From: Archangium violaceum
GTDB taxonomy: Bacteria > Myxococcota > Myxococcia > Myxococcales > Myxococcaceae
NCBI RefSeq assembly: GCF_016859125.1
Contig: NZ_CP069338.1
Coordinates: forward strand, 8,807,501 to 8,871,500
DNA length: 64,000 nt
Reading direction: 5' to 3'
Shown: piece by piece, positions 2,640 through 6,944 of the stretch
Position numbering within the stretch: position 1 is the stretch's first letter
Layout: each line of letters begins with the position of its first letter
The notes under the pieces: generated by a model
What the model was told of the DNA's origin: nothing
Databases searched by the model: none
Seen by the model: the letters and a program-made list of their open reading frames with translations, nothing else
Program-made: the position numbers and the translations under genes

Positions 2640-3848
2640 TCAACGGACATCGAGTCTCTTTTGTTTGGATTGTCTCGCCCGCTCCTGGGCGTACTCCCCG
2701 AGAGGGACCTCGCCCCGGCGGGCACGCACCCGGAGCTCGAACAGGGCCTCTCGCTCGGCGTGCAGCGCATCCGGCGAATCCTCGGGCACGGGCGTCAGCG
2801 GGTAGCGCAGATCGATCTGACTCAGCTGGACACCCAGGGGATCCAGGGTCACGTAGGTGCCCAGGGACAGCGCCGCGGCGAACACCCAGGGGATCGCCAG
2901 TCGCAGCAATCGGGTCGGGGGCTCCAGCCGGACCGGAGCCTCCGGGGCCTCCACGAGCTCCACCGGACGGGGAGGGCCCCCCAGCAGCACGGGGAAGCGG
3001 CGCGCGGCGGACAGCAGCGCCCAGAGGATTCCGCTCCCCACGAGCGCGAACATCAGGAGGGTCATCATCTCCTGCTGGCTGGTGGGCTCCTGGGGGGACT
3101 CGAGGTGCTTCGCGCTGAAGAACAGCACCGTGGACACCAGGTTGTTGGCGGAGTGCGCGAGGATGCAGGGCCACAGCGAGCCGGTGCGCAGCAGCAGCCA
3201 GCCGAACAGCACGCCCAGCTCCACGCGGGCCAGGAAACCCACCGGATCCAGGTGGAACGCGCTGAAGACGACCGCGGAGAACACGAGGGGCTTCAGGGGC
3301 GGCCCCCCGTGCGCCTTCAGGCCCTGGAAGAAGATGCCCCGGAAGAAGAACTCCTCGCACACCGGAGCCCCCAGGCTCACGCTCGCCACGATGAGGGCCA
3401 TCTCCACCGGCGATTGCCCGCGGAAGATGTCCGCCACGTCGTAGATCTCCCGCCACGTCTTGGGCATCAGCGACTGGGAGACGTACTGGACGGGCGCGAC
3501 GATGGCGAAGAAGTTGATCACGCCCAGGGCGAACCCGAAGGCCACCGGCGCCAGGCCCGGGAAGGACAGGCCGGTGTAGCGCACCGGCTCCCTCCCGGTG
3601 GCGCGCAGCACGTACCAGCCCACGCCGAAGAAGACGAAGATCTGGGTGAACCAGATGCCGAAGGCCACGTTGAGGGGCTGCACGAGCAGCCCCGAGGCCA
3701 GGAAGGCCACGAACACGGCCATCGTGGCGACCACCGCCACGGTGCGGGGATCCCAAAGGATAGGAGCAGGAGGTCGTGGAGGACTGGAACTGACTTCTTC
3801 CACCGGTTTTCTCCGGTTTGTGAGAGAGGTGCTCAAAACCCGACGCAC
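2640..3848 (-). CDS. CPBP family intramembrane glutamic endopeptidase (CAAX protease-like)
   Basis: A 402-residue polytopic membrane protein. The three CPBP/Abi motifs are present in order: EExxxR (CEEFFFRGIF), FxxxH (FSAFHLD) and HxxxN (AHSANN). They form the intramembrane active site related to Rce1-type CAAX endopeptidases. About eight hydrophobic segments surround them, followed by a C-terminal cytoplasmic tail rich in Arg and Glu. The start is GTG at 3848, with no ATG near it. It is transcribed divergently from the outer-membrane protein gene at 3913. Bacterial members process or degrade membrane-associated peptides; the substrate here is unknown. Confidence 0.9.
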   Translation of the reverse strand: MRRVLSTSLTNRRKPVEEVSSSPPRPPAPILWDPRTVAVVATMAVFVAFLASGLLVQPLNVAFGIWFTQIFVFFGVGWYVLRATGREPVRYTGLSFPGLAPVAFGFALGVINFFAIVAPVQYVSQSLMPKTWREIYDVADIFRGQSPVEMALIVASVSLGAPVCEEFFFRGIFFQGLKAHGGPPLKPLVFSAVVFSAFHLDPVGFLARVELGVLFGWLLLRTGSLWPCILAHSANNLVSTVLFFSAKHLESPQEPTSQQEMMTLLMFALVGSGILWALLSAARRFPVLLGGPPRPVELVEAPEAPVRLEPPTRLLRLAIPWVFAAALSLGTYVTLDPLGVQLSQIDLRYPLTPVPEDSPDALHAEREALFELRVRARRGEVPLGEYAQERARQSKQKRLDVR

Positions 3849-3870
3849 CCAGGCGAGTCGCTTCTATAAT
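3842..3870 (+). promoter_or_regulatory. Candidate sigma-70 promoter for the barrel/cytochrome operon
   Basis: A perfect TATAAT lies at 3865-3870. A -35 would fall at about 3842-3847 (GACGCA), a poor match. Transcription would begin near 3877, giving a short leader before ATG 3913 and supporting that start over ATG 3883. Confidence 0.5.
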
Positions 3871-3912
3871 GCCGAGACTGTGATGCGCTTCCCGGAACGA
3901 ACGCGGAGACGG

Positions 3913-5331
3913 ATGACGGATATCGGGCGAGGCGTTCTGCGTCGCGCGTGTCCGCTGGCGGCACTGTTGATGTCGACAACCGCGTCGGCCTCCGCGTTCC
4001 AACTCGAGGCGCGCACCGAGGCGCAGGTGTATCAGATCCGCGCCTGGAGGGACTCCTCCGCGGGTGAGCCCGTGCTGCTGCCTCGCCGGAGGATCGTCCA
4101 GTACCTGGGGATCAACGGGTACGAGCTCATCACCGGGCAGGACGTGGGCTTCGAGTCCAGCCTGCGCGTCTTCGCGGACTTCGGGCTGCCGCGCGGCGAG
4201 GCCGCGAGGATCGACGGGGTGCGCTCGGAGGACGCGGACCTGCTCCACGCCTTCGTGCGCTACGGGGGCAACGGTCTCGAGGGCCGGTTGGGGCGGCAGG
4301 TCTACGTGGACGTGGGGGACATCCTGGCCTTCGATGGCCTGCGGGTGCGCTACATGAGCCCGCTGGGAATCGGCGCCGAGGTGTATGGCGGGCTGTGGGT
4401 GAAGGGGGGCGGTTTCCTGTCCTCGTCGGTGTACCAGCCCGATGGGACGCGGGAGAGCGACTCGCGCCGGCTGGAGGAGGGCGTGGCCGGGGCGGATCCG
4501 ACACTGACGGCCCTGGAGCCGATGTACGGCGGGAAGCTGCTGCTGGAGGGCCCGGGCTCCCTGTCGGGCCTGTCCGCCGCGCTGGGCTACCGCCGGGCGC
4601 TGGTGGAGGGGCAGACGGACCTCGAGCGCGCGACGGCGGAGGTGCGGTACGGGCAGGGGCCGGGGGTGAGCGCGCTGGCGGGGGTGGACTTCGATCTGTT
4701 GCGGATGGGGCTCGCGCAGGCTCGCGCCCAGGTGCGGTGGGACGGGGAGCGGCTGGCGGTGAGCGGCGAGGCGCTGAGGGTGTCTCCGGTCTTCTCCGCG
4801 GACTCCATCTGGTACTGGTTCGCCTTCGCGCCCAGGGACGAGGCGCGGGTGCGCGTGGACTACTTCCCGCGGGGCCCGCTGCGCTACTACGTGCAGGGTG
4901 TGGGGAGCCTGTACCACACGGCGCTCAACAGCGAGTCCGATGTGGCGAAGAGGGCGGAGGATCCTGGAGGACCTCCGTCCTACACGGCGGGCGGCTCGGC
5001 GGGCGCGGCGTTTCAGCGGGGCCGCCTACGCTCGGCGCTGGACGTGTCGTACCGGCGGGGCTTCGGGGGCTCGCAGTTCTGGGCGGATCTCACGGCCGGC
5101 TACGGCTTCGGGGACGGGCGCTTCACCCTGGACGGGCGGCTCTCCGTGGCGAGCATCGACGATGGCTTCAACCCGCTGCTGGCGGGCAACTTCCTCGGCG
5201 CGCAGGTGTGGGCCAGCCACATGCTGACCCGGGCCGCGCGCGTGTCCCTGGTGCTCGAGCAGAACGTGAACGCGTACACGCGCTGGGACTCCAAGGTGTT
5301 CTTCCTCTTCGATCTGAAGGCGAGTCTGTAG
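3913..5331 (+). CDS. Outer-membrane beta-barrel protein linked to a multihaem cytochrome
   Basis: The 472-residue product has a signal peptide (MTDIGRGVLRRACPLAALLM, cleavage near ASASA) and then alternating amphipathic strands with many Gly, Tyr and Trp residues. It ends in a typical strand (SKVFFLFDLKASL), suggesting an outer-membrane beta-barrel. ATG 3913 is preferred because GGAG lies four bases upstream; an in-frame ATG at 3883 has no ribosome-binding site. The TAG stop directly abuts the ATG of the 13-haem cytochrome, so the two are translationally coupled. I do not recognise a named family. By context it could be the porin part of a porin-cytochrome conduit (inference), or an unrelated barrel. 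Confidence 0.8.
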   Translation: MTDIGRGVLRRACPLAALLMSTTASASAFQLEARTEAQVYQIRAWRDSSAGEPVLLPRRRIVQYLGINGYELITGQDVGFESSLRVFADFGLPRGEAARIDGVRSEDADLLHAFVRYGGNGLEGRLGRQVYVDVGDILAFDGLRVRYMSPLGIGAEVYGGLWVKGGGFLSSSVYQPDGTRESDSRRLEEGVAGADPTLTALEPMYGGKLLLEGPGSLSGLSAALGYRRALVEGQTDLERATAEVRYGQGPGVSALAGVDFDLLRMGLAQARAQVRWDGERLAVSGEALRVSPVFSADSIWYWFAFAPRDEARVRVDYFPRGPLRYYVQGVGSLYHTALNSESDVAKRAEDPGGPPSYTAGGSAGAAFQRGRLRSALDVSYRRGFGGSQFWADLTAGYGFGDGRFTLDGRLSVASIDDGFNPLLAGNFLGAQVWASHMLTRAARVSLVLEQNVNAYTRWDSKVFFLFDLKASL

Positions 5332-6507
5332 ATGGAGCGCCCGTACCGTACAGCCCTGGGCCTCGTGGCCCTGTCCCTCGTGGTGGCGGGAGTCGCCTGG
5401 GCGGCCACGGCTCGCGAGCGCAGCCTCGCCATCTACCCGGCTCAGCACATTCCCCTGAAGTTCGACCACGCGCGGCACCTGGCGGCGGGCGCCGAGTGCG
5501 TCAGCTGCCACGAGGACGTCCGGGCGAGTGGCTCGGCGAAGGATCGCAACCTCCCGGGTCACGAGGAGTGCGAGACCTGTCACGACATCGAGGCGGCGAA
5601 GAAGGGGGCGAAGACGGACCCACCCTCGGGCTGCAACACGTGCCACCCGGGGTTCGATCCCACGGTGCGCCTGGCGCCGCTGAAGGTGGACCTGCCGCCG
5701 GCCAACCTGCGCTTCGACCACAAGGTGCACGTGGACAAGAAGGTGGAGTGCGCGACATGCCATGGCGACATGAAGGACGTGCGGCTCGCCACGCGGCAGC
5801 AGCTCCCGAAGATGGCCACCTGTTTCGAGTGCCACAACGGCAACGTGGCCTCGAAGGAGTGCCGCACCTGCCATCTGACGGAGCCCTCGGGGCGGTTGCA
5901 GCTCACGTTCCCCTCGGGTGTGCTGCGGCCGATGCAGGGGGATCCGCTGGGGCTGGACCATGGGCCCCGCTACGAGTTCAACCACGGCAGCCGAGCGTCG
6001 GTGGATCGGCAGACGTGCATGTCGTGCCACGCCGAGAGCTACTGCCAGTCGTGCCATGACGCGCTCCAGAAGCCGCTGTCGGTGCACCCCAACGACTACA
6101 TCACCCTGCACCCGGCACAGGCGCGGCAGGACTCCTCGCGCTGCTCGAGCTGTCACCGGACGCAGTCCTTCTGCGCGGCGTGTCACGAGCGCACCGGGGT
6201 GGGCATGGACGCGGACCGCTCGCTGCGCGCGCGCAACGTGAAGGTGCACCCGGACTACAGCGCGTGGGTCGAGGTGCCCGGGCCCCAGCACCACGGCGTC
6301 GCGGCCTCGCGTGACATCCAGCAGTGCGTGTCCTGCCACCGGGAGGAGTCGTGCATGAGCTGCCACTCGGAGCGCTCGGTGCGGCGGCAGGTGAACCCCC
6401 ATCCGGACGGCTTCGCGGCGGCGTGCAAGCGGTTGGCGGCGGCAAACGATCGGGCTTGCGTCAAGTGCCACACCCAGGCGAGCCTCGAGCAGAGGGGGTG
6501 CCGTTGA
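5332..6507 (+). CDS. Multihaem c-type cytochrome (13 CxxCH motifs), exported
   Basis: The 391-residue product starts with a Sec-type signal or anchor (about residues 8-26) and contains thirteen CxxCH haem-attachment motifs (for example CVSCH, CETCH, CNTCH, CFECH, CQSCH, CAACH, CVKCH). Many isolated His residues are available as distal ligands. Spacing is irregular, as in class III/c3-like multihaem proteins. It should be exported and matured by the cytochrome c system, acting in electron transfer in the periplasm or across the outer membrane. It starts one base after the barrel gene's stop and its TGA overlaps the next ATG, so the three genes form one coupled unit. The electron donor and acceptor are not shown by the sequence. 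Confidence 0.93.
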   Translation: MERPYRTALGLVALSLVVAGVAWAATARERSLAIYPAQHIPLKFDHARHLAAGAECVSCHEDVRASGSAKDRNLPGHEECETCHDIEAAKKGAKTDPPSGCNTCHPGFDPTVRLAPLKVDLPPANLRFDHKVHVDKKVECATCHGDMKDVRLATRQQLPKMATCFECHNGNVASKECRTCHLTEPSGRLQLTFPSGVLRPMQGDPLGLDHGPRYEFNHGSRASVDRQTCMSCHAESYCQSCHDALQKPLSVHPNDYITLHPAQARQDSSRCSSCHRTQSFCAACHERTGVGMDADRSLRARNVKVHPDYSAWVEVPGPQHHGVAASRDIQQCVSCHREESCMSCHSERSVRRQVNPHPDGFAAACKRLAAANDRACVKCHTQASLEQRGCR

Positions 6508-6944
6508 TGCGCCGGTTGTTGCTCGTGGGGCTGCTGGGGTGTGCCGCGTGTCTGGAGCCGGGGGATCCATTCCTCGCCGAGCGCGATACGGATCCGCCCG
6601 ACGTGGTGTCCACCGAGCCGAGCGCCGGAGGCACGCTGCCCCTGAGTGGCCAGCTGGAGGTCCTCTTCTCCGAGACGATGGACGTGCGCACGCTGCGCCC
6701 GGGCATCGCGGTCTTCGAGGGCAGGGCGGAGCTCCCCCTGGTGCTGACGGTGCCGCCCGCCTCGGACGCGGACGAGAACCTCGAGCGCGGGGACGTGCCG
6801 TACACCGTGACGGTGAGCGCGGCGGAGGCGGGGGCCTTCAAGCCGGGCACCGCGTACACGCTGGTGCTGCGCACCTCGCTGACGGACTACGAGGGCAACC
6901 CGCTCAGGCAAGAGGTTCGGGTGCCCTTCCGTACGGCGCCCTGA
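6507..6944 (+). CDS. Ig-like (Big_5/SbsA-type) domain lipoprotein
   Basis: The 145-residue product begins with a lipoprotein signal (MRRLLLVGLLGCAAC; lipobox LLGC or AAC). One Ig-like domain follows, with the typical pattern PPDVVSTEPSAGGT ... LEVLFSETMD ... YTVTV ... LVLRTSLTDYEGN found in SbsA-type Big_5 domains. It overlaps the cytochrome stop by one base (TGATG), making it the third member of the operon. It could be a surface or periplasmic scaffold for the cytochrome; that role is inferred from context only. Confidence 0.85.
   Translation: MRRLLLVGLLGCAACLEPGDPFLAERDTDPPDVVSTEPSAGGTLPLSGQLEVLFSETMDVRTLRPGIAVFEGRAELPLVLTVPPASDADENLERGDVPYTVTVSAAEAGAFKPGTAYTLVLRTSLTDYEGNPLRQEVRVPFRTAP

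Follow-up and report, generated by a model that had tools for sequence, protein, structure and literature searches.

Can a fruiting, predatory myxobacterium pass electrons across its outer membrane? The question is raised by three adjoining genes, encoding an outer-membrane beta-barrel, an exported 13-haem c-type cytochrome and a haem-free immunoglobulin (Ig)-like lipoprotein, in a 64,000-nucleotide stretch of the Archangium violaceum genome (NZ_CP069338.1, positions 8,807,501 to 8,871,500; hereafter the window). The source genome is 12.68 Mb in a single contig and shares its genus with two others of our set, G044 and G046 (G, genome; L, locus). Extracellular electron transfer among myxobacteria is known chiefly from the metal-reducing Anaeromyxobacter, and searches of the open-access literature turned up no comparable conduit described from other myxobacteria. 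Secreted multihaem proteins have been described in some Myxococcota metagenome-assembled genomes (MAGs), with extracellular electron transfer suggested; the excerpt of that report drawn on here does not mention a conduit (PMC11495043). A first, sequence-only reading of the window had proposed an electron conduit, provided that the trio stays together in related genomes and that the barrel is not too narrow for a haem wire. Our analysis points to a trans-outer-membrane conduit of the porin-cytochrome (Pcc) kind, with a probability of about 0.75. It is most likely neither an MtrAB system nor wholly new: it has 13 haems, a cytochrome without a lipobox, and a haem-free Ig-like lipoprotein replacing the usual outer-membrane cytochrome. 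We favour this reading because barrel and cytochrome genes adjoin at every locus found outside the order, both are retained where the operon is split, the cytochrome has enough conserved histidines for a wire-like one, and both proteins are kin to those of Anaeromyxobacter.

The barrel profile matched 61 genomes of 195 in the phylum, and 12 of the 61 lie outside the order. At all 12 loci, which belong to other orders and classes of Myxococcota, the barrel gene adjoins a cytochrome gene of the same family with 12–14 CXXCH motifs. No other open reading frame (ORF) with at least five CXXCH was present in the fetched stretches of these loci. A homologous lipoprotein gene was found at seven of them, following the cytochrome at L138, L139, L142, L143, L144 and L147 and preceding the barrel at L141. 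Five of the seven products were scanned in Pfam and all were Big_5; the assignments at L141 (best E 1.1e-10) and L142 rest on tblastn. The core is the pair of barrel and cytochrome, which the lipoprotein often joins as a third component. In family f11 (L139, L142–L144, L147) a gene judged by eye to be TatA/B-like precedes the barrel, and pilT- and recA-like genes, also named by eye, lie on the lipoprotein side at L139, L142 and L147.

Within the order, the barrel was matched in 44 of 142 genomes: whole in 34, broken over two frames beside an intact cytochrome gene in G109, in two pieces in G038, as short remnants in seven and weakly in G026. The cytochrome was matched with at least 250 bits in 37 of 145 genomes; matches of any strength (134 of 145) include many partial ones to other c7-type cytochromes and were not counted as orthologues. 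All 34 genomes with a whole barrel fall among these 37. The other three are G109, G038 and G088, a MAG 78% complete that has cytochrome and lipoprotein and in which the barrel was not found. The lipoprotein occurs in 35 of 142 genomes, namely all 34 genomes of the window's family that carry this cytochrome and the remnant-bearing G108. The trio does stay together in related genomes, its hosts being Archangium, Hyalangium, Pyxidicoccus and some Myxococcus. At the 15 family loci retrieved with wide flanks and having the trio on one contig (L064–L077, L081), it lies between a divergent CPBP protease gene and a convergent GPAT gene.

In the Myxococcaceae MAGs G128 and G090 (L082–L085) the operon is split, with CPBP and barrel genes on one contig and cytochrome and lipoprotein genes on another, both halves being kept; the split could be an assembly error, but the neighbours are alike in both MAGs. 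There, a MoxR/RavA-like ATPase ORF comes after the CPBP and barrel genes, and the cytochrome-lipoprotein half lies in a different neighbourhood (named by eye). Seven genomes of the Myxococcus-containing genus retain only fragments, which lie between the same two flanking genes and differ in their break points. At one of these, G108 (L090), the start of the barrel gene runs in frame into the end of the lipoprotein gene, and no cytochrome match is left. L089–L095 and L076 were noted as decaying loci. The gene trees broadly track families, and vertical inheritance with repeated loss would be the simplest reading.

The cytochrome itself has a make-up that would fit a wire. Among 28 aligned cytochromes, the 13 haem-motif histidines and 13 further histidines are conserved (25–28 of 28); twelve of the latter are present in 27–28 sequences and one in 25. 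As judged from the alignment, these histidines are enough to give each haem two ligands, which would suit wire-like cytochromes rather than enzymes. Pfam matches were obtained to Cytochrome_C7 (7.4e-18) and, in the C-terminal half, to Mtrc-MtrF_II-IV (2.8e-13). Profile matches to solved chains place the N-terminal half in the c7/ActA type; MtrA was absent from the 24 sequence matches of the profile to solved chains, which excludes nothing.

Anaeromyxobacter is itself a myxobacterium, and Anaeromyxobacter-type pairs turned out to be relatives of the trio's barrel and cytochrome. In 23 loci with distant cytochrome matches, a weak barrel match stood beside the cytochrome in 21 (E 7e-15 to 0.03). 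From these loci, 20 barrels and 19 cytochromes entered the profiles and trees; L152 and L167, which yielded no barrel, and L154, a 6-haem ORF, were omitted. Start codons in this group were picked by script, and the L149 barrel came out short. The trio group was represented by 29 barrels and 28 cytochromes, chosen rather than all available. In hhalign comparisons the two barrel profiles matched with 98.8% probability (E 1.1e-16, 390 columns; reversed control 0.3%), and the cytochrome profiles with 100% (E 1.2e-53; reversed control 0.1%). Midpoint-rooted trees of barrel and cytochrome both split the same two groups at 100/100, and the trio pair falls in a separate group outside the Anaeromyxobacter-type clade. 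A lipobox-like cysteine at the cytochrome N-terminus, scored by a loose motif with the 12 distant cytochromes left out, was present in 17 of 19 Anaeromyxobacter-type sequences and in 0 of 28 of the trio group. From size and haem count, we take the genes at L158 and L159 to be probably the published Anaeromyxobacter pcc genes, in genomes that would be those of A. dehalogenans 2CP-1 and 2CP-C. Their cytochrome has 344 residues and 12 CXXCH, in agreement with the 338–344 residues and 12–14 haems that the excerpt of PMC4245776 gives for cytochromes of two-gene clusters in Anaeromyxobacter and Kuenenia. According to the same excerpt, Adeh_3392 is raised under Mn(IV)-reducing conditions, and Anaeromyxobacter clusters lacking an outer-membrane cytochrome are still counted as pcc (PMC4245776). 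The sequence-only reading had suggested a distinct system. This holds in that no MtrB-family match was obtained, and fails in that both proteins are profile-level relatives of the Anaeromyxobacter-type pairs. Fuller multihaem clusters occur in that group (L149–L151, L163, L170, L165–L168), in which the 12–13-haem cytochrome is accompanied by 10- to 12-haem partners; at L165–L167 an ORF with 23 CXXCH lies nearby.

The gene structure in the window is real: the ORFs, the 13 CXXCH, the junctions and the TATAAT box were all confirmed in the sequence (Table 1). The locus had been drawn from 3842, and this start is not kept; the barrel gene rather begins at GTG 3880 or ATG 3883. The junctions described as fused are abutting or overlapping genes and not protein fusions. 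The barrel stop TAG is directly followed by the cytochrome ATG (gap 0), and the cytochrome TGA (6505–6507) shares one base with the lipoprotein ATG. The cytochrome gene is the only ORF in the window with at least two CXXCH. Junctions were counted at loci with both genes distinct and whole (21, the window copy included), plus one remnant: among the 21 the gap between barrel and cytochrome is 0 in 16, 1 in two and 14 in one, with an overlap of 4 in the other two. In all pairs among four same-genus copies, the ratio of nonsynonymous to synonymous substitution (dN/dS) was 0.18–0.37 for the barrel, 0.23–0.30 for the cytochrome and 0.30–0.52 for the lipoprotein, and all three genes look to be under purifying selection in the genus. 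With these ratios (0.18–0.52) and an abutting or nearly abutting junction at the 21 measured loci, the trio is not a chance arrangement. The promoter box stands at the same place in the 15 relatives printed (TATAAT in 11, TATACT in four; L029 contributed from a short stretch), 9–10 nt 5′ of an in-frame TTG where the window has its GTG. This suggests a barrel mRNA that may be leaderless, or nearly so, with a non-ATG start (GTG or TTG).

Table 1. Features of the trio locus, in window positions
Feature	Position	Strand	Remarks
TATAAT -10-like box	3865-3870	+	9 nt before GTG 3880; kept in relatives
Outer-membrane beta-barrel gene	3880-5331	+	482 aa from ATG 3883; 483 aa if GTG 3880 is the start
Conserved barrel loop after predicted strand 13	4783-4833	+	residues 301-317, SPVFSADSIWYWFAFAP
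Exported 13-haem c-type cytochrome gene	5332-6507	+	391 aa, 13 CXXCH, signal peptide without lipobox
Haem-free Ig-like (Big_5) lipoprotein gene	6507-6944	+	145 aa

Is the barrel wide enough for a haem wire? The AlphaFold2 model (mean predicted local distance difference test score, pLDDT, 64.5) has 22 strands of at least seven residues, or 19–22 when its poor part is allowed for; two 3-residue strands in that part were omitted, which favours loop parity. On this count, the predicted turns average 4 residues after even strands and 14 after odd ones, as would befit a barrel with periplasmic ends and long loops outside. A regular barrel of 22 strands has, by simple geometry, a backbone diameter of about 39–41 Å and leaves about 30 Å inside. 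Solved outer-membrane barrels matched the model in structure comparison (VIA-align, Z up to 16.4), and solved TonB receptors, which are 22-strand barrels enclosing a plug domain, aligned over 336–355 residues. Because of this lumen and these alignments, a barrel of about 22 predicted strands does not appear too narrow. The 50 rows listed by Foldseek or by VIA-align contained neither MtrB nor any other barrel of a conduit, which, with a moderate query model, excludes nothing. By sequence, the only match to solved chains was an antibody fragment at E 0.61, which is noise. Outer loops 1 and 7 are more conserved (0.82–0.83) than the strands (0.73). The latter loop, which follows strand 13, has a mean column conservation of 0.83 and a pLDDT of its own below 50, and its motif is partly common to one Anaeromyxobacter barrel in the alignment. 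Loop conservation is mixed: outer loop 8 reaches no more than 0.53, and one periplasmic turn has 0.82. Where outer loops are conserved, they would be suited to sealing a partner plugged into the barrel.

The model also resembles solute-specific porins (Occ/Opd), and the operon could in principle join an unrelated solute porin to a cytochrome that stays within the periplasm and serves respiration or storage. The c7/ActA-type N-terminal half of the cytochrome would fit this arrangement, as would the lack of a predicted complex of the two proteins. It is nevertheless improbable: an unrelated porin would not account for linkage at 12 of 12 loci in other orders and classes, for both genes being kept when loci split, for the same deep split in both trees or for kinship to a published Pcc pair. 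The trio can also be measured against that published kind. For Pcc porins 18–22 strands are reported (excerpt of PMC4245776), a range that the predicted barrel falls within, and an exported cytochrome in the range of 5–14 haems stands beside it (13 CXXCH, signal peptide, gap 0). An outer-membrane cytochrome gene, present in the majority of published clusters though not in every one, was not found, the third gene being haem-free and the 64-kb window holding no second multihaem ORF.

The third gene encodes a single Big_5 Ig-like domain (Pfam, E 5.6e-11). Its signal peptide is followed by Cys-Leu-Glu-Pro-Gly, the cysteine being common to relatives. Having no haem, it is not the counterpart of OmcB or MtrC. 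In L149 and L150, of the Anaeromyxobacter-type group, the slot after the 13-haem gene is filled by an 11-haem lipobox cytochrome; exchange of the surface lipoprotein among conduits has been described (excerpt of PMC6148476). A conserved haem-free lipoprotein might instead dock a partner of a surface reductase with a non-respiratory task, such as reductive iron uptake or the powering of a secreted oxidoreductase or anti-prey weapon. That the hosts are predators regarded as aerobic, and that the trio is dispensable and lost in some Myxococcus, would agree with this. The tracked neighbours (CPBP protease, GPAT, argS) point to no such task, and we consider it unlikely. The CPBP/Rce1-like gene for a membrane-embedded protease lies divergently beside the barrel (window 2640–3848, minus strand), and does so in the window's family and in G030 and G031 (L078, L079); at two loci of other classes, L140 and L148, Rhomboid takes its position. 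It may be a mere neighbour, since it is kept in the seven loci that hold only conduit remnants.

Several observations weigh against a Pcc-type conduit. The barrel model is only moderate, and most of residues 1–121, which hold strands 1–3, is poorly predicted. The cytochrome model is unusable (pLDDT 48.4); because of this, and with no complex predicted, insertion of the cytochrome into the barrel can only be proposed. An outer-membrane cytochrome is not encoded nearby, and no lipoprotein was found at five of the 12 distant loci or in genomes G030, G031 and G038. When a single Anaeromyxobacter barrel was compared with the trio-group profile, the match reached only 78% (E 1.8e-5), and the two trees disagree in the finer placing of L137, L138 and L080, all long branches. 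No barrel match was obtained in the same-genus genomes G045 and G047, among the 142 genomes searched; with this absence and the loss in part of the Myxococcus genus, the conduit is dispensable. Its hosts are, moreover, mostly regarded as aerobic. The conduit first proposed is supported in part, by composition (barrel, exported multihaem cytochrome, lipoprotein), by conservation of the trio and by a predicted barrel with no clear sign of being too narrow; its function is putative.

In such a conduit, the cytochrome would thread or plug the barrel, and its haem chain would join periplasmic donors to the cell surface. These donors might be, for example, quinol-linked NrfH-like or ActA-like cytochromes. 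The outermost of the 13 haems would serve as the outlet, since no outer-membrane cytochrome is encoded beside them, and the Ig-like lipoprotein could cap, stabilise or dock the outer face. On balance, electrons would probably flow out of the cell when oxygen runs low, towards oxides, humics or secreted redox molecules. The proposal is weakest on direction and acceptor, which we hold with much less confidence than the conduit itself. The same conduit might run inward, taking electrons into the periplasm from external donors such as Fe(II) or Mn(II), as MtoAB and PioAB do without an outer-membrane cytochrome. A core of this kind is found in Fe(II)-oxidation mtr clusters and in Anaeromyxobacter pcc; the nearest studied relative is, however, tied to Mn(IV) reduction (both from the excerpt of PMC4245776), and neither barrel nor cytochrome has a match to the Mtr families, which makes inward flow rather unlikely. 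Besides small multihaem ORFs, haem searches of the genome listed an NrfH-like ORF next to a 5-haem NrfA-like ORF (L157) and three pentahaem ORFs resembling ActA, NrfA and ActA being assigned by eye; this inventory is incomplete, as the window cytochrome itself was missing from the PF22113 matches. The NrfH-like/NrfA-like pair (nitrite to ammonium) hints at anaerobic respiration in this Archangium-genus genome.

A related conduit across the phylum suggests that supposedly aerobic predators can, or could, respire outside the cell. We offer as a tentative and somewhat doubtful extension that an ancient Myxococcota-wide conduit with a haem-free Ig-like cap, of common origin with that of Anaeromyxobacter and lost from parts of Myxococcus, allows fruiting myxobacteria that live as aerobic predators to exchange electrons directly with minerals, prey or neighbours in oxygen-poor swarms. 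Pairs of species with the operon intact and degraded make the idea directly testable, and a haem-free protein standing in for the outer cytochrome raises the question of how the wire ends at the surface.

How does the trio compare with known conduits? In MtrCAB, MtoAB and PioAB, too, a cytochrome is paired with an outer-membrane barrel. They differ in having 10 haems and not 13, and in their barrels: that of the window matched nothing in Pfam or NCBIfam at E≤1, and among 29 barrels searched against Pfam only four stray single matches appeared (best E 0.031), none of MtrB type. These libraries presumably include MtrB/PioB models, and the earlier remark that the barrel resembles no MtrB motif is borne out. 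With no family match for the barrel, and with 13 haems and a DmsE-family score of 9.7 bits against a cut-off of 192.2 for the cytochrome, membership in MtrAB/PioAB was rejected. About 22 strands are predicted here, compared with 28 predicted for MtrB/MtoB (PMC4245776, in excerpt). Conduits of Geobacter and Desulfobacterota are alike in architecture. Geobacter ExtHIJKL, as excerpted from PMC6148476, has a barrel and a periplasmic multihaem cytochrome without an outer-membrane cytochrome, its lipoprotein being of the rhodanese family and not Big_5, and in ExtABCD the 12-haem ExtA stands beside the 18-strand ExtB (PMC6148476). OetABI of Desulfobacterota, in the excerpt of PMC10553843, has a porin, a periplasmic cytochrome and a lipoprotein encoded together in a cluster; its OetB, however, is an outer cytochrome, whereas the lipoprotein here is haem-free. 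The Anaeromyxobacter Pcc "Group IV" (Shi et al. 2014, excerpt of PMC4245776) shares the barrel-then-cytochrome core and a published cluster without an outer-membrane cytochrome. The trio differs from it in having 13 haems in place of 12, a clade of its own, no lipobox on the cytochrome and, often, an added Big_5 lipoprotein.

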